DNA from: a virus
Strand: one strand, 5' to 3'
Length of the DNA: 22,502 bases
Virus record (IMG/VR): IMGVR_UViG_3300037199_000247
Coordinates: 1-22,502 of that record
Part shown: positions 2-22,502 of the stretch, in pieces
Position numbering within the stretch: position 1 is the first letter of the stretch
Layout: each line of letters opens with the position of its first letter
The notes under the pieces: generated by a model
The model's database searches: none
What the model was told of the DNA's origin: nothing
Seen by the model: the letters and a program-made list of their open reading frames with translations, nothing else
Position numbers and translations under genes: made by a program

Positions 2-733
2 TGGCTGGAACAACTCAGCGCCGAACGCGTCCGCGCCCGTGTGCCGCAGGTGTTCGAATTGTTGGGAGTCAGCGCGCTGTTTGTCGATGCCGGCCCCTTG
101 CGCGACCTCGCGCGCGATCTCTGTTTTCTGTTGAATGGCCTTACCAGTTTTCATCCGTCGCCGCTTCCCGATCCCGAGCGCGCCGTCATTCATTTTCCCG
201 GCGGTCTCACGTGGGACGGCGCGAACCAGCGCTGGCGCGGCCTGCGTTGCGCGGCGGTCGAGTTCACGCTCAAGGAAGGGAAGGGGGTCGTCCACAAACT
301 CGGCATCACGCAGGACGGCCTTTTCTATCCCGTCATCGCCTGCAACCGCGACGAGACCATCGAACGCGTCGTCAACGAACTGCTCACCGCCGCCGAGAAC
401 GTCATTGAAGTCATCGACGGCAAACTGCGCACCACGCCGTCGATTCGCCTGCCCGAACGGGGAGTCGCCACGCCGAAGATCATCGACGCGTTCGACGCCC
501 ACATCGTTTCCGGCAGCCGCCGCGAACGCGACGAACGCGGCCACGCCGAGCATTTTGTCGACGGTTGCGAAAATCATTTGCTGCTCAGCGACGCCTACAG
601 CGCGCTCGCGGAATCCGTGTGTGAACACCCCATCGCGCTCCCGCCTACCGGCGCGATGAATCCCACCACCTCCTGCACACTCGGAAACCGCGGCCGCTGG
701 GGCGCGCCCATTTTGGCCAGGAGAACCTGGTGA
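2..733 (+). CDS. Phage terminase large subunit, C-terminal part (partial)
   Basis: The reading frame is open at the left edge, so the N-terminal ATPase domain lies outside the window; about 243 codons remain. What is seen fits the RNase H-like nuclease half of a large terminase, which cuts concatemeric DNA during packaging into the prohead. There is a hydrophobic strand ending in Asp (ALFVDAGPLRDLA), as in the Mu gp28 type, and a late segment, ENHLLLSDAYSALAE, resembling the final helix and acidic residue of these nucleases. The strongest support is context: a Mu gp29-type portal follows after one small gene. A GTG at 41 could be mistaken for the start, but the frame continues upstream without a stop. 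The stop at 731-733 adjoins the next gene's leader. The nuclease assignment rests on position and weak motifs, not on a clear full-length match. Confidence 0.66.
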   Translation, partial: WLEQLSAERVRARVPQVFELLGVSALFVDAGPLRDLARDLCFLLNGLTSFHPSPLPDPERAVIHFPGGLTWDGANQRWRGLRCAAVEFTLKEGKGVVHKLGITQDGLFYPVIACNRDETIERVVNELLTAAENVIEVIDGKLRTTPSIRLPERGVATPKIIDAFDAHIVSGSRRERDERGHAEHFVDGCENHLLLSDAYSALAESVCEHPIALPPTGAMNPTTSCTLGNRGRWGAPILARRTW

Positions 734-768
734 AACCAAAAACCAACCCAACCCAAAGGAAATCGAAA

Positions 769-1164
769 ATGAAGAAGCTCATGTTCTCACTGCTGTTCAC
801 CGCGAGTGTCCTGGCGACGTACGTCTACGCGCAAACCGGCTACCCGCTCGGCTCGGACGTCGCGTCGACAATCACTACGAGCAAATTCAACATCGTCGGC
901 ACGAGTTCGACGCTCGTCGCGACCGACAACGCCGACCGCGTGTTCTGCAAGATCGTCCAGCGCGGCACCAACGCCATCGATGTGGGTTACAGCCTCACCG
1001 TGACGAACGGCCAGCAGGACTATATCGCCGGAAACATCGGCGGCACGTGGGACACGAAACGCCCCGCGCTCTACAAGGGAGCCATCTCGGCCATTCTCGA
1101 CAGCTCCACGGCGACCCTCACGTCCGCCGTCACCGTCATCGAAGGCACACGCCAGAGTTTCTAA
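769..1164 (+). CDS. Small secreted-type protein between terminase and portal
   Basis: This 131-aa protein starts at ATG 769, preceded by an AAAGGA ribosome site at 755-760; an in-frame GTG at 730 lacks a good site and would bury the signal sequence. The N-terminus is a textbook Sec signal peptide: MKK, a hydrophobic stretch to about residue 18, and a probable cleavage at VYA/QTG near residue 21. The mature 110 residues look all-beta, with a pattern (STLVATDNADRVFCKIVQRG ... GTWDTKRPALYKGAISAI ... VTVIEG) that resembles the small beta-sandwich proteins found beside phage head and tail genes. No enzymatic motif is visible. The place between terminase and portal is unusual for a secreted product. 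It could be a decoration protein with a hydrophobic N-terminus, or a truly exported protein. Function unknown. Confidence 0.75.
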   Translation: MKKLMFSLLFTASVLATYVYAQTGYPLGSDVASTITTSKFNIVGTSSTLVATDNADRVFCKIVQRGTNAIDVGYSLTVTNGQQDYIAGNIGGTWDTKRPALYKGAISAILDSSTATLTSAVTVIEGTRQSF

Positions 1165-1191: not shown

Positions 1192-2589
1192 ATGGCCAAT
1201 CGCCTCAGAAAAACATGGCAAGCGCTGAAAGGTTTTGGCACGGAAATATTCCGCGCCGACAGCGCCGGCCTCTTCCAATTCGGCGAGAGCAATCTCGTGG
1301 ACGCCCCTCGCAAATCGGGCGCGCCGCCCGTTCCGCCGGCACCCGGCACCATCGTCAAAGCGCAGGTGGCAGAGCGCTGGATGAACCAGGTCACGCGCGG
1401 CCTCACGCCCGAAGCCATTGATGATTATCTCACGACGGCGATCAGCGGTGACACACTGAACCAGTTCGCTCTCTTCGAGGAGATGGAAGAGAAATGGCCC
1501 GAGCTGCGTCTCGCGCTCTACAAACACAAACTCAAGGCCGCGCGCCGCAATCCGCGCATCGTTCCGCCGGACCATCCGCAGAATCCCGCGCTGGCGAAGG
1601 AGAAAGCCGACTTCGCGAACTACGTGTTTGCCGCGATGCGCCACTGGCATCGTACCGCTTTCAATCTTCTCGATGCCGTCGGCAAAGGCATCAGCGGCGC
1701 GGAGATCGATTGGCAACCAGGGGAGGTGGTCGGGCCGAACCGTTCCTCGCGACGCGCCGCCGTGGTCATCGCGGAAATGCCGTGGGTGAATTATCGCCAC
1801 TGGAGTTGGTGGTGGGACAAACCCGAGCTGCAGTTGTTCCCTGACCTGCGCAACCGCGGGCTGCACATCGACGTGCCCGACCGCAAATTCGTCATCTTCC
1901 ACCACCTCTCCAAGAGCGGCCATCCCGCGCGCGCCGCGATCCTGCGTCCGCTCGCCTGGTATTTCCTCATCTACCTCTACACGATGAAGGACTGGAGCAC
2001 GCTCGCGGAGACTTTTGGTGTCGATATCGCCCACGCGTTTTGCAACAAGGACGCGACGCAGGAGCAGCGTAACGCGATTCTCTTGCATCTCTCCCGGCTC
2101 GCCGCCCGCGCCGGTGTGTTCGACGAAGGGACGGTCGTCAATCTCCAGCGCGCCGGCGGTGGCAGCTCGTTCCCGCAGGAAGCGTTGGTGAAATATTGCT
2201 CCGAGAAAGCGCTCGAATGCCTCCTCGGCGCAACGCTCGGCACGCAAGCCGGCATCCACGGCGCGCGTTCCCTGGGCCTGGTCCAGCAAGACGAAACGGA
2301 AGAGTTGGTGGATTGGACGGCTCTCCTCTTCGCGGGAACGATGACCGGCACCGCGTTGCGTTGGTTGATGGATTTCAACTTCACCGACCCGACCGACAAT
2401 CCCGTGATGGAATTGCCGGGAGCAAGCCGTCGCGACATCGCCGCTCTCGCCAACGTCGTAAATACGTTGGTCAACCTCGGCCTGCGCGTCCCCGAATCCT
2501 GGGCCCACGCCCAGTTCGACATCCCGCAGCCCGGCGCAACCACCGAGCGCCTACTAACTCCGAGTCAAATCAACCCTTCAGGAGATTAA
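1192..2589 (+). CDS. Mu gp29-like portal protein (DUF935)
   Basis: This 465-aa protein matches the DUF935 (Mu gp29) portal family. Twelve copies form the ring at the unique capsid vertex through which DNA enters and to which the tail joins. The hallmark segment begins near residue 252: RPLAWYFLIYLYTMKDW, followed by ETFGVDIAHAF, equivalent to the family's signature of a tryptophan-rich helix leading into (A)E-FG-P. A tryptophan-rich stretch near residues 198-210 (NYRHWSWWWDKPEL) also fits. Mu gp29 is about 510 aa, so this is slightly short, mainly at the C-terminus. The start is ATG 1192 with only a weak upstream GAGA. The gene lies between the signal-peptide protein and a gpI-like protease, the Mu head order except that the usual gp30 minor head gene does not follow. 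Confidence 0.88.
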   Translation: MANRLRKTWQALKGFGTEIFRADSAGLFQFGESNLVDAPRKSGAPPVPPAPGTIVKAQVAERWMNQVTRGLTPEAIDDYLTTAISGDTLNQFALFEEMEEKWPELRLALYKHKLKAARRNPRIVPPDHPQNPALAKEKADFANYVFAAMRHWHRTAFNLLDAVGKGISGAEIDWQPGEVVGPNRSSRRAAVVIAEMPWVNYRHWSWWWDKPELQLFPDLRNRGLHIDVPDRKFVIFHHLSKSGHPARAAILRPLAWYFLIYLYTMKDWSTLAETFGVDIAHAFCNKDATQEQRNAILLHLSRLAARAGVFDEGTVVNLQRAGGGSSFPQEALVKYCSEKALECLLGATLGTQAGIHGARSLGLVQQDETEELVDWTALLFAGTMTGTALRWLMDFNFTDPTDNPVMELPGASRRDIAALANVVNTLVNLGLRVPESWAHAQFDIPQPGATTERLLTPSQINPSGD

Positions 2590-10582: not shown

Positions 10583-12072
10583 GAACTGTCCCCTCAGCTT
10601 GGAGCGCACTCGAGACCGCACGCGAGCGACAGGTTGCTCTGCTGATCCACATCTTCGCAAGGCGTGATGGCCGTGTCTCACTACCGGCTGGTTGGGGATC
10701 ATGGACGTACTCAATCGGATTTCAGGCCAACGTCAACTTCACCGACCTGGCGAATTACGCTAGCGACGGTATCCAATCGCGCACCTACGTGCCGGCCGCG
10801 ATTGAGTTCGATGCGAACCAGGTGTTTCGCAAGGAAAGCACCGATCTCGATCCGCACGACCTCACGCTCACGGTCGATCCCTCGCTCGACCCATTCCTCA
10901 ATTACGTCAACCACCAGTGGCCGCTCACGTTCGGCATCGTGATCTACAAGGTGCACCGCAACGGCAACGCCATCATCACAGTGGACAATGGCACTGGCAC
11001 GCAAGTGCCGGTCGCGGACGTCGCGTTCATCGGCTATCTCGACAGCGACGACGCGTTGGACACCAACAGCGCGGGTTTGGAACAAACCATCGATGGCGGC
11101 AAGTTGAAGCTGACCACGAAGTGGGACCACATCACCAAGAAATTCGTGCGTGAGATCCCGCGTCCTGTTTTTAGCATCGACTGCCCAAAGGCACTCTTCT
11201 CGTCATCGAGCACGGCGGTGGTCGATTGCAACGCCGATCCGCAATACGTCCGTATCGACGGCTTTGTCTTGCAAGTCAACGGCGTACTCGTCAGCGCATC
11301 GGAATGGTACGCGCAGCCGCCGGGCTGGTTTGCGCAGGGCATGATCCAATACTCGGCGACCGACCCAATCAGCGGTCTGGTGTTCGGGTTCACGCTCGGT
11401 GTCACCGCCAGCGCGCAGCGCACCGACCTCGGCGTGAACTATGGCGACCTGACACTGGAAATGTTTCCGCCGCTGCCAATCACAGGCCTGGTTGTCACCG
11501 CGTTCGGCGGGTGCGACCGCCTGCGTTCAACCTGCATCGGCAAGCACATTCCCGTGGGCACCGTCCCGCCCGCGCCCGGCACGCCGACGCCCGGCCACAT
11601 CGATGTGGCGCTGCAACTCTTCAACAGCGTTAGTAGCAACGCCAAGACAGCACGCGTAATCATAACACCCACGCTATTGACGATTCAATACAGCGGCACC
11701 GACAGCACACAGATCGGCAACTTCGCCGTCAATGGCGTGGACTGGACAACCACCTCGATGATGGCGCTCGGGTCGAGCGCGCTGGTCACGAGCCCGGGCT
11801 TTACGCTGACAGCCGGTGGCACGGGACCGCCGAACTCTTCCGGGTACAATTTCACGCTCGCCAACAACGGCGCAGGGACGCCGAGCATCGACCAGAAGTC
11901 AACCGCCGCGAATGGCTTCACCACCATCATCAAGATGAAAGGCCAGGCGGCGTACGATTTCCGCGTAAGTTGGACACCGACCAATGGCTCGCCCATCAAT
12001 TTCGGCAACCTGCAGAACTTCGGCGGCACCGACATCCCCATCGAACACCCATCATTGGAGACGACGAAGTGA
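10579..12072 (+). CDS. Tail hub protein, DUF2163/BR0599 family
   Basis: This 497-aa protein starts at ATG 10579, overlapping the previous stop (ATGA); a longer open frame upstream is a shadow of the previous gene. The N-terminal half fits DUF2163: a strand series around 75-150, and REIPRPVFSIDC (C202) followed by a second cysteine (C217), the family's R-IPR--Y---C...C. The BR0599 element is clear at GCDRLRSTCIGKH (C312, C319), equivalent to GCD-T--TC--KF-N. In gene transfer agents and related phages this protein, with an iron-sulfur or metal-binding cysteine cluster, forms the hub joining tube and tip. About 150 C-terminal residues beyond BR0599 are an added beta-rich domain of unknown role, possibly a carbohydrate-binding or Ig-like appendage. 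Confidence 0.78.
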   Translation: MRTVPSAWSALETARERQVALLIHIFARRDGRVSLPAGWGSWTYSIGFQANVNFTDLANYASDGIQSRTYVPAAIEFDANQVFRKESTDLDPHDLTLTVDPSLDPFLNYVNHQWPLTFGIVIYKVHRNGNAIITVDNGTGTQVPVADVAFIGYLDSDDALDTNSAGLEQTIDGGKLKLTTKWDHITKKFVREIPRPVFSIDCPKALFSSSSTAVVDCNADPQYVRIDGFVLQVNGVLVSASEWYAQPPGWFAQGMIQYSATDPISGLVFGFTLGVTASAQRTDLGVNYGDLTLEMFPPLPITGLVVTAFGGCDRLRSTCIGKHIPVGTVPPAPGTPTPGHIDVALQLFNSVSSNAKTARVIITPTLLTIQYSGTDSTQIGNFAVNGVDWTTTSMMALGSSALVTSPGFTLTAGGTGPPNSSGYNFTLANNGAGTPSIDQKSTAANGFTTIIKMKGQAAYDFRVSWTPTNGSPINFGNLQNFGGTDIPIEHPSLETTK

Positions 12073-12683
12073 GCACCCATCTCCCATACTTCCATACTGC
12101 CGATCGCGTTCAGATGTTGCTCAATCAACTTCATTTATGGAGCGGCACGCGCTGGCGGCACGCGGGCGCGCGGCCGAATGAGATGCGCTGCGGTGTGAGC
12201 GGCGACTGCTTGTTTTGGGTGCACGTGTTCAAGGCCATCGGCGCATTGCCGACCAGGTTGGAGATCCCTAACTACCGCCGCAAGGAGGCGCTCGCCGACG
12301 AAATGCAGACATTGCGGGGTTGCATCGAGGCGACGAATTGCACCGATCTGGTATTCGATGAAGCGCACACGAAACAGCTGCCAGTCTTCCGCGTCGGCGA
12401 CGTGCTGCTGTTCAGGAACGGCACTAGCGGTGCTCACTGCGGCCTCGTGGTCAGGGAAGCGCCGGTGCACTTCACCCATCTCACCGGCAACGGCCTGCTC
12501 GAAGAGCCACTCCGCCAGGCGCACTACCTCGCGGCTTTGGCGTTCGTTTACAGACTGCTTGAAGCCCCACAAAACCAGGTCAGCGAGACCCACGAAGCAA
12601 ATCCGAAAACCGAATTCCGAAACTCAATTGACTTTCGGATTTCGAGATTCGTGCTTCGAGTTTCTCCCAGGAGGGAGTCATGA
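12069..12683 (+). CDS. NlpC/P60-like tail peptidase
   Basis: This 204-aa protein starts at GTG 12069, overlapping the previous stop (GTGA), with GGAG at 12057-12060. It fits the NlpC/P60 cysteine peptidases found in phage tail tips, which cut peptidoglycan peptides during DNA entry. The nucleophile is probably C47 in GVSGDCLFW, the catalytic histidine H123 in GAHCGLVV, with a strand VGDVLLFRNG before it, the usual spacing for the fold. The family's commoner DCSGF is altered to GDCLFW, so activity is not certain. The last 35 residues (ETHEANPKTEFRNSIDFRIS) are not domain sequence: they are encoded by a host-type repeat at 12599-12668 that extended the frame. Neighbours (DUF2163 hub upstream, large tip protein downstream) match gene transfer agents. 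Confidence 0.8.
   Translation: MSTHLPYFHTADRVQMLLNQLHLWSGTRWRHAGARPNEMRCGVSGDCLFWVHVFKAIGALPTRLEIPNYRRKEALADEMQTLRGCIEATNCTDLVFDEAHTKQLPVFRVGDVLLFRNGTSGAHCGLVVREAPVHFTHLTGNGLLEEPLRQAHYLAALAFVYRLLEAPQNQVSETHEANPKTEFRNSIDFRISRFVLRVSPRRES
12599..12668 (+). repeat. Host-type palindromic repeat forming the peptidase C-terminus
   Basis: A perfect ten-base inverted repeat, AAATCCGAAA (12599-12608) and TTTCGGATTT (12633-12642), is followed by CGAGATTCGTGCTTCGAG. This wording is the familiar interspersed repeat of planctomycete and verrucomicrobial genomes (from memory). It is AT-rich against GC-rich flanks. It is translated as EANPKTEFRNSIDFRISRFVLR and ends just before the AGGAGG of the next gene. 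Confidence 0.75.
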
Positions 12684-15635: not shown

Positions 15636-16097
15636 ATGAGCGTACTAGCAAACGGGACGGAAGATTTGCCATTTGGCCTCACACCGGCTGCAGCCTACGC
15701 CATCATCAACACCGCAATTCAGAAAATCGCGCAGATGAACCTGCTCGACAAGGACGTTCCGTTCTTCGGGCTGGTGCGCGACGGCCAGGTACGCGGTACG
15801 TCGCAGATCGCCATCGAACGACTCATCACCGCCGTTGAAATCCGCACCGAAAGCGCCGCGCCTGTGGGCAGTGCACTACTGATCCAGCTTGTGGTCGGCG
15901 GTACGCTGCAATCGCAACAATATTCCCTCGCCGCCGGCAGTACCTACACACTTGTAAGCGTCACCGGGGACGGCAACGGCGGCGCCGGCTCTGGCCTCGT
16001 CGTCCCCGTCAACACCACACTCGCCGTCCAGATCATCAACAGCAACCAGGCCGCCGATGTGGTTGTTACGCCCAAAACCCAATTGAGGATTCTATGA
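15636..16097 (+). CDS. Small beta-rich tail-associated protein (fibre base?)
   Basis: This 153-aa protein lies between the tip protein and the fibre. An N-terminal amphipathic part (TPAAAYAIINTAIQKIAQMN) precedes a beta-sandwich region (ITAVEIRTESAAPVGSALLI, TLQSQQYSLAAGSTYTLVSV, NTTLAVQIINS) resembling the small domain that often caps phage baseplate or fibre-attachment proteins (a strand, nucleus and AG-T--TL pattern). No signal peptide is present, in contrast to the following genes. Its stop overlaps the fibre start (ATGA, 16094). I do not recognise a named family; a fibre anchor or accessory receptor-binding protein is the best guess from position. Confidence 0.6.
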   Translation: MSVLANGTEDLPFGLTPAAAYAIINTAIQKIAQMNLLDKDVPFFGLVRDGQVRGTSQIAIERLITAVEIRTESAAPVGSALLIQLVVGGTLQSQQYSLAAGSTYTLVSVTGDGNGGAGSGLVVPVNTTLAVQIINSNQAADVVVTPKTQLRIL

Positions 16098-17779
16098 AAC
16101 GAATTTTGATCCTGCTTTTAGCGATCACGATGTTTGCGTTCTCTTCACGCGCCGGCAATGTCTACCCCTTCCGCCTCAGCAATGGCACCGCGACCGGCGA
16201 AGTGGACGAAGTGTTTTTCAGCGCCAGCGACATCACGCTTTCGATCACCAACATTCCCGGTGCCGGCAAGCGCGCCATCATCGGCATCATCGGCGGCGGC
16301 GGTGGCGGCGGATCGAACAACACGATCCTCGTTGCCGGCAACGGCCTTGACTTCACCGATCTCGGCGGTGGCACGAACTCGCTCGCCATCGATCCCTCGA
16401 TTGTGGCGACGAATCCGGTCAGCGGTAGCGGCGGCGGTCTCACCAACGTCCTCGACAGCGCGGGCGGCACGTATTCCTTGGTCGGCCACACCAACCAGCC
16501 GACACTGCTGATCAAAGGCTTGACCAACGAAAGCCCGGTCACGCTCACGATCACAGATCGCGGCACGATGCTCGGTTTCCTGGTCGCCACGCAAGGCGGC
16601 TTCGGCCAGACCAACGCGTGGACCACCAACGGCCTGCCGTGGGCCGTGTCAGACACATTCGGTTTCTCCAACGCTTCGTCCGTCGTCGGTCTGGCGTTCA
16701 CCAATCTCGGCGGCGTGCCGACGATCCACCTCGTGCCCGACAGCACCATCGCACGCACCGGACAATCCCAGACGTGGAGCGCCCCGCAGACCTTCAACAG
16801 CAGTGCGACGTTGACACTCGGCGCGCCGACCTGGTTCAAGAGCAGCGTGACTATCAGCGACAACGTCACCATCGTTTCCAATGCCACCGTTGGCGGAAGC
16901 CTGACGGTAGGCACCGACGCGATGATCAGCGGCAACGTGAATGCCGGCAGCTTCACCGGTTCCATGAACGGCGGCAACATCACCGGCAACCAGAGCGTCG
17001 GGACAAATACGCTCACCGCATTCGGCAGCAACACCGGCACCATCGGCAGCGCAGGGCAATTCCTCGTCGTGCACCTGAACTCCGCGGGCATTCCCGATGG
17101 CTGGAGCACGGCCACCGGCAGCAGCCTCGCCACATCGACAAATTCCATCAGTGCCGTGCAACTAAACGGCTCATGGAACAATGGCGTCATCGGGCTAACC
17201 ATCAGCAATATGAGCGTGGCCACCATCAACGGCACCACGGTCACAGTCGGTTTCGCATCCGCCCCGTTTGAGAACATTACCGTGCTCAATGGCGCGACCA
17301 ACTACACCCTGCACGGCTCAAGCCTGACAATTTCAAATCTGCTATCGGGATTCGGCGTGGTGGTCACCAATCGCGGTGGCGGTCAGATTGACATTGGGGG
17401 CACAGTGACGATGCTCTCGAATAGCGCGAGCTCTTTCTTGAGTGTTAGCGGCACAGCATCAAGTCCAACTGTCACAGTGGAAACCGCGGCCTCGACCATT
17501 ATTCCGGTCGTCACGACCCGAACGCTGCGGGTTATAAATTTGGTTTCAATGCAACCGCCAACGGAGTCAACCCAACTGCCCAACTCGTCATCCAAGATGG
17601 CGCTAACCAGCAGTACTTGTACTTTACCCGTGACGGCCCAAAGAGCGGAGAGCAGTTCATCTCTTTCAACGACAGCACCGGCGGAAACGTATCGTTTGGC
17701 CAAGAGCCGACCGGTAATGCGAGTGGTGACAAACGCGACATTAACATCTCGTCGAGCGTTTCTGTCGGTGGGCTCATAG
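16094..17779 (+). CDS. Tail fibre with Sec signal peptide, N-terminal part of a frameshifted gene
   Basis: The gene starts at ATG 16094 (GAGGAT, 16085-16090; ATGA overlap). Residues 1-21 (MKRILILLLAITMFAFSSRAG) form a clear Sec signal peptide, odd for a virion protein. Then come a glycine run (about 66-72), GSGGGLTNVLDS, and long Thr/Ser/Asn/Gly-rich stretches with short repeats (SGNVNAGSFTGSMNGGNITG; TGTIGSAGQFLVV), as in trimeric tail fibres. Fibre-like sequence runs to about residue 474 (STIIPVVTT, near 17515). After that this frame gives basic, serine-rich nonsense until the stop at 17779, while the -1 frame reads smoothly (NAAGYKFGFNATANG). A single missing base near 17518-17523 would explain it. 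Whether this is mutation, assembly error or a real switch is open. Confidence 0.72.
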   Translation: MKRILILLLAITMFAFSSRAGNVYPFRLSNGTATGEVDEVFFSASDITLSITNIPGAGKRAIIGIIGGGGGGGSNNTILVAGNGLDFTDLGGGTNSLAIDPSIVATNPVSGSGGGLTNVLDSAGGTYSLVGHTNQPTLLIKGLTNESPVTLTITDRGTMLGFLVATQGGFGQTNAWTTNGLPWAVSDTFGFSNASSVVGLAFTNLGGVPTIHLVPDSTIARTGQSQTWSAPQTFNSSATLTLGAPTWFKSSVTISDNVTIVSNATVGGSLTVGTDAMISGNVNAGSFTGSMNGGNITGNQSVGTNTLTAFGSNTGTIGSAGQFLVVHLNSAGIPDGWSTATGSSLATSTNSISAVQLNGSWNNGVIGLTISNMSVATINGTTVTVGFASAPFENITVLNGATNYTLHGSSLTISNLLSGFGVVVTNRGGGQIDIGGTVTMLSNSASSFLSVSGTASSPTVTVETAASTIIPVVTTRTLRVINLVSMQPPTESTQLPNSSSKMALTSSTCTLPVTAQRAESSSSLSTTAPAETYRLAKSRPVMRVVTNATLTSRRAFLSVGS

Positions 17780-18570
17780 TAGCTAATCAGGACAATAACG
17801 GGACCGGCCTAGGCGGCTACCAATTCTACGAGAACGACCCGCAATTTCCCCGGATACTGTTCACGAACGACAAGCAAGCCATCAATACCAATACTGCTTG
17901 GGTCCATGAGACGTACGCGAGTTTCGGAAACTGGACGAATTCTGGCAAAGCTGCAACGCTCACGGGAGGCGGTCTAATTGTTATTGGCTCAAACGAATAC
18001 TGGCTGGCGGTTGGCCGGGCGGTTGGCTCAGTGACCGGCGCCAAGGCCAAAGAATATCCCACGAACAGCTTTTCAGGTTTCTTCTTCTCGCCAGTATCAT
18101 CGGCACAGAGCAATAAATCTTTCCTGGCTGTGCGGGACGCCTCAAATGGCTTGTGGCTGATAGGCGTCGGTTCCAATGGCGCTCACGGCGTTTTTCAGAC
18201 GAACGATTTCTCGACGCCGGTAGCTTTACAATTTATCACCAACCTTCTTACGGCGGTCACTGACACTTACACCAATTCAGGGCGCGGCGAGATTTCCGTC
18301 ACGGTGAATTTTACCTCGGTGCTCGGGAACTCTGCTGTCAGTTGGATGTTTGAGTTCTCTACCAATTCGACTGGCACGATAGCGACCAACACAATCGACT
18401 ATGTTTCGGAGCCGGCAATAGCCCTGACAGAAACCAAGGTGATGCGAGGCGTGATGGACGCGGGCTACGCACTCTGCATCTCCAACCTATCATCCGGCGG
18501 AGCCACTCTCACGATCGGCACCGAGTCCGGCGCGCCTGCCAACGCGCCAAACCGCATCACGTTCTATTGA
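17521..18570 (+). CDS. Tail fibre, C-terminal part (after the frameshift)
   Basis: The frame is open from 17449 but becomes fibre-like only from about 17521, giving roughly 349 residues that continue the upstream fibre. No ATG or GTG with a ribosome site lies near the start, and a TTG at 17617 is unconvincing, so this is best read as the second half of one protein of about 825 aa. It contains QLVIQDGANQQYLYFTRDG, WVHETYASFGNWTNSGKAAT, several aromatic-rich strands, and an ending SNLSSGGATLTIGTESGAP, consistent with a receptor-binding tip. Codon use is visibly more AT-tolerant (GTA, ATA, CTA, TCT codons) than in the N-terminal part, suggesting a different origin. The receptor cannot be guessed. 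Confidence 0.65.
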   Translation, partial: NAAGYKFGFNATANGVNPTAQLVIQDGANQQYLYFTRDGPKSGEQFISFNDSTGGNVSFGQEPTGNASGDKRDINISSSVSVGGLIVANQDNNGTGLGGYQFYENDPQFPRILFTNDKQAINTNTAWVHETYASFGNWTNSGKAATLTGGGLIVIGSNEYWLAVGRAVGSVTGAKAKEYPTNSFSGFFFSPVSSAQSNKSFLAVRDASNGLWLIGVGSNGAHGVFQTNDFSTPVALQFITNLLTAVTDTYTNSGRGEISVTVNFTSVLGNSAVSWMFEFSTNSTGTIATNTIDYVSEPAIALTETKVMRGVMDAGYALCISNLSSGGATLTIGTESGAPANAPNRITFY

Positions 18571-18608
18571 CAAACCGTTCAATCCCAATCATGAAAGGAA
18601 AAACAAAG

Positions 18609-18848
18609 ATGCACGCATTCATCGCCGTAGTCCTCATCCTCAGTGGGTGTATCAACTGCCCGCCCGCCGGCACCGTTATCACCAACACGGTCACGCTAAC
18701 CATCGGCACCAACGTCTTAGCCAGTGCCGCTATGTCGAATGGTGTCCTGGTGGTCACTGCTACGGTACCAAGCAATCAGGTCACCGCCGTCAGCGCAGCT
18801 ATCGGCACGAACTCCACGTCGAGCCAAGTTATCCTTACCACGCCATGA
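18609..18848 (+). CDS. Small lipoprotein
   Basis: The 79-aa product starts best at ATG 18609, nine bases after AAAGGA (18594-18599); ATG 18591 would include that site within the gene. The N-terminus is MHAFIAVVLILSGCINC, a hydrophobic stretch ending in the lipobox LSGC with cysteine at residue 14, so a lipid-anchored protein is likely. The short mature part is threonine-rich (NTVTLTIGTNVLASAAMSNG; SNQVTAVSAAIG) and resembles fibre-like beta strands more than an Rz1-type spanin, which would be proline-rich. Its stop overlaps the spike start (ATGA, 18845), implying coupled translation. It could be a fibre accessory, a superinfection-exclusion lipoprotein, or a spanin-like factor; nothing in the sequence decides. 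Confidence 0.65.
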   Translation: MHAFIAVVLILSGCINCPPAGTVITNTVTLTIGTNVLASAAMSNGVLVVTATVPSNQVTAVSAAIGTNSTSSQVILTTP

Positions 18849-21208
18849 AGCGCGTCCTATTCATCGCTTTTGTGCTCTTCGTGTCTGCTTCGGCCTGTTC
18901 GTGTTTTGCTACGGGCACGAACGTGACAGCCGTCCGCCTGCAGGGCTGGTTGTTACCGTTCAGCCAGATCGTCACGGCTGCGCCACCGACGGTCGTTACC
19001 AACCAGGTGTTCAATGAGTGGTACGGGCCGTTCGCGTCGTGGACGAACGTGATGGCGTGGGGTGCGGCTTGCGACGGGGTGACGGACGACAGTACCGCCG
19101 TGTCCAATGCGCTGGCGGCAGTGGGCACGGGCACGTGTTCGCCGGTACTGTTGATTCCGGGCATGTGTCGGGTGACAAAGAAGCCGTGGTTGAGCCAGCG
19201 GATCAATGTGGCCATTATTGGGACTAATCGCGATACTTGCGGATTCATTTACGATGGCGGCACGGTAAGCGACAGCGATGCCAACAATTCCGGGGCGTCG
19301 TCGTGCTTTCACATTGACGGCGTAAACAACTCGTATTTTGCGCGGCTGACCTTCAACGGCAACGGCAAAGCGCGCACGGTGCTGGCGAGCAGCCAACAGA
19401 GCAACGGCGGGATCTTCGACAACAACAACCTTTTCGAGGACATCGTTGTGAAGAATTCCGCGCCGGACGGCATCGGGATTGACGGTGGACACTTTGGGTG
19501 GGGTTTCTCTAACGACGAGTTCGTGCGGTGCCTCATCCAAACCAACGCGTTTGGGGCAGAGCTGGAGAACTTCAACGCGCTGGACGCGTGGTTCACTGAC
19601 TGCCTGTTCGAGAGCAACAATGTGGCCATCAACGTTAACTTCGGTGACGCCCACGCGTATCATTCTTTCTTCCGTCACAACGGGATCGACTTCAGCCACA
19701 ATCCCGGCGCTGCCTTCTGTTCGCTGGTCAGCAACACCAGCTACCAGTCCGGGATATTCCTCGTTACAACCAACCAGGGTACCGCCGGCACACAGTTGCT
19801 ATTGAAGGGCAACACGGTGATCGACCCGTCGAACATCCCTTACCGCATGGGTCAATACGGTCCCGTGGTCATGTTGGACAACTCCACGCTGACGACGAAC
19901 GCCACGATCTATTTCTACAACGGCACGTGGGGAGATTTGGTCGCGGTTGGCAATACCAATGGCATCTCCAACTGGTTGACGATTTCCGGCAGCACGTCGA
20001 TGCGGACGAACCTGGTGGACAACTACGTGGTGAACCGCGCCTCGCTGACGTTCACCCTCCCGGCACCGCCGCTGTCTGCCACCAACCTCCAGCGGACGGT
20101 GTTCGAGATGACGACCAACGTCACGCCGTCGATGCTGCAGGGAAGCATCAATAGTGCGGCGGATGGCTGCGTGTTTCATATCCCGGCGAACGTGGCGGAT
20201 ACCGCGAACCACATCATCACGTTCAACTCGACGGTAACGATCCCGACCAACAAGGACGTCCGGATCGTGGGAGACGGGATATATACGAAGTTAACATGGA
20301 ACAACGGCAGCAGCTCATTTTTCACGTGTCCGTACCCATCGCACGCGACATTTTCACATTTGTACCTATATGGCAACGACGGCAACGGGTCGGATGGCAA
20401 GATCCCCAACGCGATTGCCATTTCGGGTGTCAGCACGACGGCGGCGCGGGTGTATCTGCGGGCGAGCAACATGCAACGGGGGTGCGTGGCGAACCTGTAT
20501 CTTGGGGATTGCCCGAACACCGTGGTGGACGTTGAGGGGTTGAGTTATGGGGCAACCGCCACGGCGCCGGCGAGCGGTACGAACATCGTGCTCGGCGGAC
20601 GCGGTAAAGTGCGGTTCATCCAATCGGACAGCGGAGTAGACAAGATCAGCTACGTCTGCACCAACGGCGGGCAGTTGTACGTGGAAACCTCCTATAACGA
20701 AGGGGTGGGGACGAGCGGCGACACGATTTTTCTGGTGGGCGGTGGAGGGACGATCACGTTTCTGGACACGAAACTGGTGGAGAACATCGGCAGCGATGAT
20801 TTCAGCGGGGCGACGTCGAACGGGTTTGCGGTGGCCAACCTGAGCGGCCAGCTCTCATTCCTCAATTGCGGGAACATGATTGACTGGTTTAACATTACAG
20901 GTGGAACCACGGGCCTGATTTGGATCAATGGAAACACGACATTCAACAGCCCGGTCGGCACGTTCCCTATTCTCAATTCAACGAATGATACGCCGGTGCA
21001 GACGATGAACTACAACTACAACGGCAGCGGTTCCCGCTACAGCAATGTCCTATCCGCCTCCGCTGCCTTCACCCGCCAGATGCTCGCCCAGGCGCGCGCG
21101 GAGTACACGGATCGCGCCCCGATGGAACGCCGCACGAACCAGACCGACGTGCTGCTGGAGCAGGTGTACTTCGAGTTGGGCAGTCAAAATCTCAGTGTGA
21201 CGCCATGA
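18845..21208 (+). CDS. Pectate-lyase-fold tail spike with signal peptide
   Basis: This 787-aa protein starts at ATG 18845 (ATGA overlap with the lipoprotein); a longer open frame upstream is a shadow. Residues 1-23 (MKRVLFIAFVLFVSASACSC) form a Sec signal peptide. NVMAWGAACDGVTDDSTAVS (about 68-87) is the hallmark start of the pectate lyase 3 (PF12708) beta-helix, N-V-DFGA-GDG-TDDT-A. A first helix of NN- and SN-rich turns follows to about residue 370. A second region (about 440-720) restarts with HIPANVADTANHIITF and DVRIVGDGIYTKLTW, suggesting two beta-helix domains in tandem. The C-terminus (QMLAQARAEYTDRAPMERRT) is helical and charged, perhaps a trimerisation segment. Such spikes bind or cut surface polysaccharide; catalytic residues cannot be named from sequence alone. 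Confidence 0.82.
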   Translation: MKRVLFIAFVLFVSASACSCFATGTNVTAVRLQGWLLPFSQIVTAAPPTVVTNQVFNEWYGPFASWTNVMAWGAACDGVTDDSTAVSNALAAVGTGTCSPVLLIPGMCRVTKKPWLSQRINVAIIGTNRDTCGFIYDGGTVSDSDANNSGASSCFHIDGVNNSYFARLTFNGNGKARTVLASSQQSNGGIFDNNNLFEDIVVKNSAPDGIGIDGGHFGWGFSNDEFVRCLIQTNAFGAELENFNALDAWFTDCLFESNNVAINVNFGDAHAYHSFFRHNGIDFSHNPGAAFCSLVSNTSYQSGIFLVTTNQGTAGTQLLLKGNTVIDPSNIPYRMGQYGPVVMLDNSTLTTNATIYFYNGTWGDLVAVGNTNGISNWLTISGSTSMRTNLVDNYVVNRASLTFTLPAPPLSATNLQRTVFEMTTNVTPSMLQGSINSAADGCVFHIPANVADTANHIITFNSTVTIPTNKDVRIVGDGIYTKLTWNNGSSSFFTCPYPSHATFSHLYLYGNDGNGSDGKIPNAIAISGVSTTAARVYLRASNMQRGCVANLYLGDCPNTVVDVEGLSYGATATAPASGTNIVLGGRGKVRFIQSDSGVDKISYVCTNGGQLYVETSYNEGVGTSGDTIFLVGGGGTITFLDTKLVENIGSDDFSGATSNGFAVANLSGQLSFLNCGNMIDWFNITGGTTGLIWINGNTTFNSPVGTFPILNSTNDTPVQTMNYNYNGSGSRYSNVLSASAAFTRQMLAQARAEYTDRAPMERRTNQTDVLLEQVYFELGSQNLSVTP

Positions 21209-21215
21209 TGGGTTC

Positions 21216-22211
21216 TTACTTGTGAAAGTAGTTCCACACCCTCATGTACCAAGGGGGCGGTGGCTCAGGCGGTGGCGGGGGAGGCGGTGGCTTGCTCGCG
21301 TGCGCGTCCTTCACCGGGGCAGCAGGCTTACTCTGCGCAACAGCTACCTTGGCATCCTGCTCGCGCTGCGGGATTTGGGATTGAATGTCCTTAATCTTGG
21401 CATCGAGAGATGTCAGTGTTCCCTGCTCCTGACTAATCTGCTGTTGGTAGACCGCTATCTCGCCGCTCTGACCGGTGGTTGCTTCCCCCTGCTGCGGGGT
21501 GGTTATGCCTGCTGTTAAGCGACCCGCCAAATCACGTCGTCCGCCACCCGGACTCGCGGCGGTTCCACCTTGCGCTGCCATCAGTTTCGCCTGCGTTGTG
21601 GTGATGGTGGCGCCAAGCTGGGCGCGCTGCACCTGGAGGTCGGCAAGCTGGCTCTTGAGGGATTGCAGGGACTCTTGCGCCGCTTGTACCTTTTTTTCAT
21701 CGGGGGTCATCCACGTGGCGGCAAACTTAACCTTGCCACTCGCCACGTTCGTTGCCTCCGCTTGCCAATCCGCAAGGCGTTTGCTGATCTCCGCAGCAGC
21801 TGCGGAGTTTGTAAACCTTGCCTGAAACTTTTCAAAGGCGGCAATTCCCATCGTGTATTGATCCTTCGTCAATTCCTGGTTCGGATTGAGCGTGTATTTC
21901 GCTAGGGAGGCGTACGCCGCTTTCTCCTGCTTTTGCTCCAGGGTCTCGCGGACAATGGATTGGATGTCCGACTTGTCCACCTGCCTCTGGGTGAAGATCG
22001 TGCCGTGGTAGAGGGATACTTCGATTACGATTTGCGTCTCTGTTTCCGAAACAATTTGTCCCTCCAGCATATCGCCGGATTTTAAAGTCAAGGTGTCGGC
22101 TTTGAGCGGTGCCGGATGGCCGAGAAACAGCAAGCCAATAAAAATCAACAGTAGACACCCGAAGGGAGTCCGACCCCTTTCCGCATTCGCATGTGTTCCC
22201 GGTGCTGGCAT
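21216..22211 (-). CDS. Secreted coiled-coil protein with SH3-like N-domain and proline-rich tail
   Basis: This 331-aa protein is convergent to the spike, with seven bases between stops. It starts at the ATG ending at 22211, with GGAG on the minus strand at 22218-22221. Residues 1-38 contain a hydrophobic core (about 19-31) and a probable cleavage at LKA/D. Next is a small beta domain, TLTLKSGDMLEGQIVSETET (about 40-59), of the SH3-like 'LKSGD-EG-I' type common in verrucomicrobial secreted proteins. Two coiled coils follow (about 166-215 and 250-285: SLQSLKSQLADLQVQRAQLG; QQQISQEQGTLTSLDAKIKD). The C-terminus has proline runs (308-315, 317-320) before WYMRVWNYFHK. It looks like a host envelope protein, not a virion gene, but its exact role is unknown. 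Confidence 0.78.
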   Translation of the reverse strand: MPAPGTHANAERGRTPFGCLLLIFIGLLFLGHPAPLKADTLTLKSGDMLEGQIVSETETQIVIEVSLYHGTIFTQRQVDKSDIQSIVRETLEQKQEKAAYASLAKYTLNPNQELTKDQYTMGIAAFEKFQARFTNSAAAAEISKRLADWQAEATNVASGKVKFAATWMTPDEKKVQAAQESLQSLKSQLADLQVQRAQLGATITTTQAKLMAAQGGTAASPGGGRRDLAGRLTAGITTPQQGEATTGQSGEIAVYQQQISQEQGTLTSLDAKIKDIQSQIPQREQDAKVAVAQSKPAAPVKDAHASKPPPPPPPPEPPPPWYMRVWNYFHK

Positions 22212-22261
22212 TCGTTACTCCGTCGGTCCGCAAATCCTTCTGTCCAAGCTTGCGAGACACA

Positions 22262-22291
22262 ATTTTAGCAAGGGCTGTCCCGCCATCGCAA
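22262..22291 (-). promoter_or_regulatory. Putative sigma-70-type promoter for the secreted coiled-coil gene
   Basis: On the minus strand, TTGCGA (22286-22291) and TAAAAT (22262-22267) are separated by 18 bases, close to the TTGACA/TATAAT consensus. Transcription would begin near 22255, giving a leader of about 44 bases with the GGAG site before the start at 22211. This is consensus matching by eye. Confidence 0.45.
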
Positions 22292-22408
22292 GGGTATTCC
22301 GTTGCCTCTTAAGTAGCGCGCGCGGATAAAAACGACCGACGAATTCAAACCAATCCTTGTCTCGCCATCGACTCAAGCAAAATATTTTCTATCGCGAAAC
22401 AAAAGAAC

Positions 22409-22436
22409 TTGCGCCGGGAAAAGCGCTCGCTAGAAT
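22409..22436 (+). promoter_or_regulatory. Possible divergent promoter at the right edge
   Basis: TTGCGC (22409-22414) and TAGAAT (22431-22436) with a 16-base spacer face right. A purine-rich site (GAGGAGGAAGAGG, 22453-22465) follows and then candidate starts TTG 22469 or GTG 22472. The remaining noncoding text between 22212 and 22408 shows the minus-strand promoter and nothing else I can support. Confidence 0.35.
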
Positions 22437-22471
22437 CGCGACTTAGTTCACCGAGGAGGAAGAGGATTTTG

Positions 22472-22502
22472 GTGGCGAGTGGTGCCGCGGTGAAGGCAGA
22501 TT
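22472..22502 (+). CDS. Possible gene start cut by the window edge
   Basis: Only about ten codons (VASGAAVKAD) are visible after a purine-rich ribosome site at 22453-22465. The start could be GTG 22472 or TTG 22469, in the same frame. Too short for any functional statement; it may not be a gene. Confidence 0.22.
   Translation, partial: MASGAAVKAD

Follow-up and report, generated by a model that had tools for sequence, protein, structure and literature searches.

The window analysed here is the whole of a virus record of 22,502 bases, which starts inside a terminase gene and in which profile matches assign terminase, portal, head and tail genes to a single cluster (Table 1). Between the terminase and the portal, where the original prediction had placed it, lies a gene for a 131-aa protein that begins at ATG 769 behind the motif AAAGGA. 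Its neighbours are close on both sides, with 35 bp from the terminase stop and 27 bp to the portal. The truncated terminase shares 71-75% identity over the common part with the complete large terminases of the viral contigs L002 and L003, and a homologue in the Verrucomicrobia MAG palsa_1439 (G001), the one named MAG that the compared genomes include, matches GpA_ATPase at 2.3e-05, slightly below the Pfam cut-off. Downstream, the major head protein (phrog_1005), Gp36 (PF07030) and a tail protein (phrog_1101) follow in Mu-like order, and the window thus contains the Mu-type late genes PF06074 and PF07030. The protease ORF has a repeat-like stretch, IQNPKSAIQN, close to its N-terminus (about 2650-2690); similar peptides also occur within the terminase of two more distant clusters, L004 and L011. 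With simple sigma-70 and terminator consensus patterns, neither a promoter nor a terminator belonging to the 131-aa gene was found (promoter-like sites nearby: 0 found, 0.2 expected).

Table 1. Features of the window around the 131-aa gene and at the right end of the cluster. G001 is palsa_1439.
Feature	Position	Strand	Basis
Large terminase, C-terminal part, 5' end cut by the window	2..733	+	homology to complete terminases of L002, L003
Ribosome-binding site AAAGGA of the 131-aa gene	755..760	+	sequence; relatives with GGAG-type sites at a similar place
131-aa exported-type protein	769..1164	+	ORF call; six relatives; omega 0.11 window vs G001
Sec/SPase I-like leader MKKLMFSLLFTASVLATYVYA, predicted cut before Q22	769..831	+	leader rule; A21-Q22 invariant
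Mature part, 110 aa, pI 6.3, one Cys	832..1161	+	composition; no membrane span seen
Mu-type portal	1192..2589	+	Portal_Mu PF06074, 8.4e-56; phrog_113
Fibre-like gene, first part, leader MKRILILLLAITMFAFSSRA	16094..17779	+	leader rule; single 851-aa ORF in G001
Fibre continuation, other frame	17617..18570	+	both parts align to one G001 frame
Small lipoprotein-like ORF, lipobox LSGC	18591..18848	+	lipobox; G001 homologue
Spike-like gene, leader MKRVLFIAFVLFVSASA	18845..21208	+	leader rule; G001 spike also leader-bearing
331-aa exported-looking gene, right edge	21216..22211	-	common to G001 and G401
Intergenic flank; in G001 leads into nrdJ (class II RNR)	22212..22502	.	nucleotide alignment

With the portal as bait, the cluster was recovered from L002 (genome G388), L003 (G389) and palsa_1439 (locus L010), whose portal is 95% identical to that of the window, and in all three a homologue of the 131-aa protein is located between terminase and portal. 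A search of 11 genomes from the family of palsa_1439 brought three more, one in G401 at 88% identity and a pair of divergent copies in G393 at 30% and 32%. The protein family therefore has seven members including the window, and all six relatives lie immediately upstream of related portals; the concern attached to the original prediction, that the gene is found only in this genome, does not apply. The seventh member (L233 of G393) sits at a contig edge and has neither leader nor terminase. G393 carries two divergent clusters, L232 and L233, in one genome. The clusters L004 and L011, whose portals are 54% identical, have no 131-aa homologue, and their portal follows the terminase after about 150 bp. 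Among 387 genomes of the phylum, palsa_1439 gave the only convincing match, scans of viral contigs with the protein or its alignments returned no relative besides G388 and G389, and tblastn against phage records gave no match. Weak matches in two of the 387 genomes were set aside as chance, being a repeat protein and a short low-complexity stretch (G252, G286). Since the gene is short and lacks a family match, it could be suspected of being a spurious ORF or an assembly artefact, but six relatives and an omega of 0.11 between the window and palsa_1439 speak against this reading, which is already refuted by the conservation of the gene and can for practical purposes be dismissed. The family changes faster than the portal (about 41% vs 76% identity).

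The terminase and portal genes of Mu-type loci were expected to be adjacent, and this is largely the case: the gap is shorter than 100 bp in 68 of 98 unique Mu-type portal loci, a count that includes the miscalled L010 (gap -23, the portal start having been called too early) and leaves out 7 of 105 loci with no usable upstream ORF. The expectation falls short in that other genes also occupy this gap elsewhere. The gap is a site for accessory genes, because in five Firmicutes prophages (L018, L021, L027, L035 and L047) it holds ORFs that we take, from the motif DPPY, to be methyltransferase-like. A leader-bearing gene in the gap occurs in the clade of the window only, among the 98 loci surveyed.

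The N-terminus of the 131-aa protein has the features of a Sec signal, as had been proposed. A leader rule devised for this analysis and unbenchmarked (positive n-region, hydrophobic core and AxA) is passed by 6 of the 7 members of this diverged family, the window included, and A21-Q22 is invariant in all seven. By chance, 53 of 4800 permuted N-termini of window ORFs pass the same rule (1.1%), and for four members shuffles of their own N-termini pass at 66, 75, 156 and 270 per 2000. Ribosome-binding sites at the leader start in family members place the leader at the true gene start. Between G388 and G389, dN is 0.46 in the leader vs 0.087 in the mature part, as expected if selection acts on the physics of the leader only. 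The leader thus changes rapidly in sequence while its features are retained, as in real signal peptides.

The remainder of the protein is less informative. Downstream of the leader no membrane span is apparent, the protein has no lipobox, and Pfam, PHROG and PDB searches with the family gave no usable match. AlphaFold models of mature parts were discarded as unusable (pLDDT 34.8 and 34.0). The beta-sandwich body suggested from the sequence has only a sheet-favouring composition (0.45-0.49) in its favour and is an unproven guess; the further suggestion that the protein is structural likewise gained nothing, with no family match and no usable model.

The 131-aa gene is not the only leader-bearing gene in its cluster. 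The fibre and spike of the window also pass the rule, which bears out the link to fibre and spike signals drawn earlier, and none of 17 other cluster genes tested does. For the fibre, the rule is passed by three of four members (window, G001 and G401), and the fourth, in G388, has an N-terminus that resembles the others but contains charges; for the spike it is passed by both members, window and G001. The fibre of the window is split across two frames, which may be a sequencing error or a true frameshift, against one continuous ORF in G001. Tailed-phage particles assemble in the cytoplasm, and conserved export leaders on outer proteins are odd because such particles are built inside the cell. 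Raw leader counts are 31 among 851 ORFs from 52 Verrucomicrobiota regions and 24 among 1755 from 78 other loci; they include host and lysis genes and do not serve here as an enrichment test.

The idea that structural-type proteins with export-like signals recur holds for three head proteins elsewhere. These belong to phrog_1731, annotated as virion structural protein, and each begins, downstream of a ribosome-binding site, with a leader-like N-terminus (L053:14489-15025, L059:10520-11083 and L174:7209-7721), with the profile match starting only downstream of the leader-like segment. They are small particle-type proteins that, like the 131-aa protein, bear a leader-like N-terminus in these loci; unlike it, they sit between the protease and the major head protein, and in sequence they do not match its family (the window member has no PHROG match, and no phrog_1731 was found in three other members scanned). 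Among 94 unique phrog_1731 relatives there are three clear cases and one doubtful, L146, which was set aside as its leader-like stretch overlaps the aligned domain; such leaders are therefore rare and scattered. In seven phage records inspected, the protein is annotated from the domain start and has no leader-like segment; one of them, RhkS, trips the rule, but within the domain. Several other exported-looking genes were seen. L174, a Verrucomicrobiota Mu-type cluster, has further leader-bearing genes at 815-1093, 11131-11985 and 12007-12414, one of them fibre-like. Upstream of the terminase in three Mu-like loci (L037:7068-7523, L074:5016-5393 and L080:6621-7025) there are small exported-looking proteins with a G.W.G..T motif directly behind the leader. 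L223 (G001:C34), possibly foreign to the MAG, encodes a repeat protein of 549 aa that bears a leader and matches Mtd_N. An Mtd_N search with hits in 3 of 387 genomes yielded no fibre set of use.

The chromosomal setting of the cluster can be read from its relatives. The last 1.6 kb of the window aligns with the DNA to the right of the palsa_1439 cluster at 77.6% nucleotide identity over 1683 columns, up to the last base, and beyond it palsa_1439 has nrdJ (class II ribonucleotide reductase, assigned by PF02867 and PF08471). G401 has the same gene order, namely an FHA gene, the cluster, the minus-strand gene and nrdJ, so that two further Verrucomicrobiota genomes hold the same cluster at the same site beside nrdJ. 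The G401 cluster begins no more than about 250 bp from the FHA gene, which leaves no space on this side for an early region. The corresponding interval in palsa_1439 is filled by about 4.7 kb of other DNA; its ORF list shows no recognisable early phage gene there, and three ORFs at this left end have no Pfam match. No integration or replication genes, repressor, transposase or early region were seen adjoining the cluster in either genome, and no direct repeat of at least 13 bp was found between the flank stretches compared. In the seven other family genomes in which the site is readable, nrdJ is preceded in every case by a GTPase-like ORF, which we take from its motif to be Der/EngA, and no cluster gene matches there; this count excludes G397 (797 bp, contig end) and G396 (nrdJ match beginning 879 bp from the contig end). 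The two divergent clusters of G393 lie at other places and none precedes its nrdJ, and relatives of the cluster must therefore have moved in the past.

The divergence of the cluster is similar to that of its host flanks. Between palsa_1439 and G401, dS is 0.25 for the FHA gene and 0.42 for nrdJ, and in the cluster the genes from holin to 6793 have values of 0.24-0.65 and the tail genes 0.63-0.91; omega ranges from 0 to 0.25 in the same comparison, which leaves out u13435 and the fibre (out of frame). On these alignments, the simplest reading would be that the cluster was inserted in the common ancestor of the window, palsa_1439 and G401 and was then retained under selection; it seems to have stayed at one chromosomal spot in some soil bacteria. 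With divergence near that of the flanks, strong purifying selection, a single site and no visible integration or replication genes, it therefore looks like a resident cluster, closer to a gene transfer agent than to a mobile prophage. The label of prophage used earlier suits the Mu-type late genes and is probably too simple for a cluster found at the same site in three genomes with no visible integration genes. An ordinary active prophage with site-specific integration before nrdJ is nevertheless a serious, if less favoured, account of the cluster, a judgement that stands apart from those made below on the protein. Its head, tail and terminase genes look intact, the G393 clusters are at other places, and the common site could merely reflect the use of one attachment site, with an integrase encoded elsewhere; the lack of a visible integrase, repressor or transposase, the G401 boundary next to the FHA gene and the missing flank repeat count against it.

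Like gene transfer agents of the RcGTA type, the cluster combines packaging, head and tail genes with no visible replication or integration genes, resides at one site and is under purifying selection; unlike them, it has a Mu-type portal (PF06074), belongs to another phylum and bears Sec leaders on fibre, spike and 131-aa protein. The likeness lies in what the cluster contains, where it sits, the selection acting on it and the lack of early genes in view. Gene transfer agent clusters are described by Redfield and Soucy (PMC6209664) as resembling defective prophages. In the available portion of the RcGTA structure paper, head spikes are separate beta-rich outer parts and the term signal peptide is absent (PMC7296036). 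With Mu-like phages (Mu, D3112/JBD25 and FP_Mushu) the cluster shares Portal_Mu, the protease position, a gp36-like protein and the late-gene order, and it differs from them in having no visible early region or transposase and an extra leader-bearing gene between terminase and portal. The portions of the open-licence literature that were available yielded no paper on leader-bearing structural proteins of tailed phages and none on a gene transfer agent of Verrucomicrobiota.

What, then, would the 131-aa protein do? We give a probability of about 0.5 to the reading that it is a late Sec-exported accessory protein of a resident gene-transfer-agent-like cluster, acting at or beyond the envelope together with fibre and spike. 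The protein would be made late, alongside the packaging and head genes, leave the cytoplasm via Sec and lose its leader to signal peptidase I, which would cut behind AxA and in front of Q22. It would then work at or beyond the envelope, in the periplasm, at the surface or in the medium after lysis, and the likewise leader-bearing fibre and spike would act with it; alternatively, it may join particles outside the cytoplasm. Several lineages within one Verrucomicrobiota family would have inherited the cluster itself at a single site ahead of nrdJ. Against this proposal, the fibre N-terminus of G388 fails the leader rule, the L233 copy has no leader, though at a contig edge, and the clusters of G393 lie elsewhere than before nrdJ.

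Other roles fit parts of the same evidence. The protein could be an exterior particle protein, a decoration of head or tail that leaves the cytoplasm along with fibre and spike and is added to particles only when lysis mixes periplasm and cytoplasm. Leaders on such outer-type proteins in the window, on the phrog_1731 head protein and fibre-like gene of L174 and on phrog_1731 in L053 and L059 would suit such a role, as would evolution faster than that of the portal, but the rarity of phrog_1731 leaders and the lack of a structural match for the family leave it possible and rather doubtful. Alternatively, the tolerant gap in the late operon, which elsewhere admits accessory-type genes such as the methyltransferase-like ORFs of Firmicutes, may have taken up an envelope moron, that is, an exported superinfection-exclusion or surface-changing protein. 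Such phage-encoded envelope-type proteins are a natural comparison, and lipoproteins as well as membrane proteins are found among exclusion proteins (PMC11437467). The 131-aa protein, unlike these, matches no known exclusion protein, has no lipobox, no membrane span beyond its leader and no visible promoter of its own, and is conserved along with the late cluster, all of which makes this an unlikely role.

A leader that stays uncut is a different matter, in which the N-terminus would tether a head-assembly factor to the inner membrane near portal and terminase, with the mature part cytoplasmic or anchored. The position of the gene between terminase and portal agrees with this, and prohead assembly is membrane-linked in T4, but the conserved AxA-Q cut site and the short core look like a cleavable leader, and we regard a permanent tether as very improbable.

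Conserved export leaders on outer proteins of particles that assemble in the cytoplasm raise a clear, testable question, the destination of these proteins. A bolder version, offered as speculation that we think improbable as it stands, would be a Verrucomicrobiota gene-transfer-agent-like particle derived from a Mu-type phage, with fibre, spike and 131-aa protein exported by Sec to join or act outside the cytoplasm, and thus assembled in two compartments. To our knowledge, no gene transfer agent has been described for Verrucomicrobiota. If the cluster is indeed a resident, host-maintained particle system, it would represent an independent domestication, and its Sec-exported parts would be a new trait.
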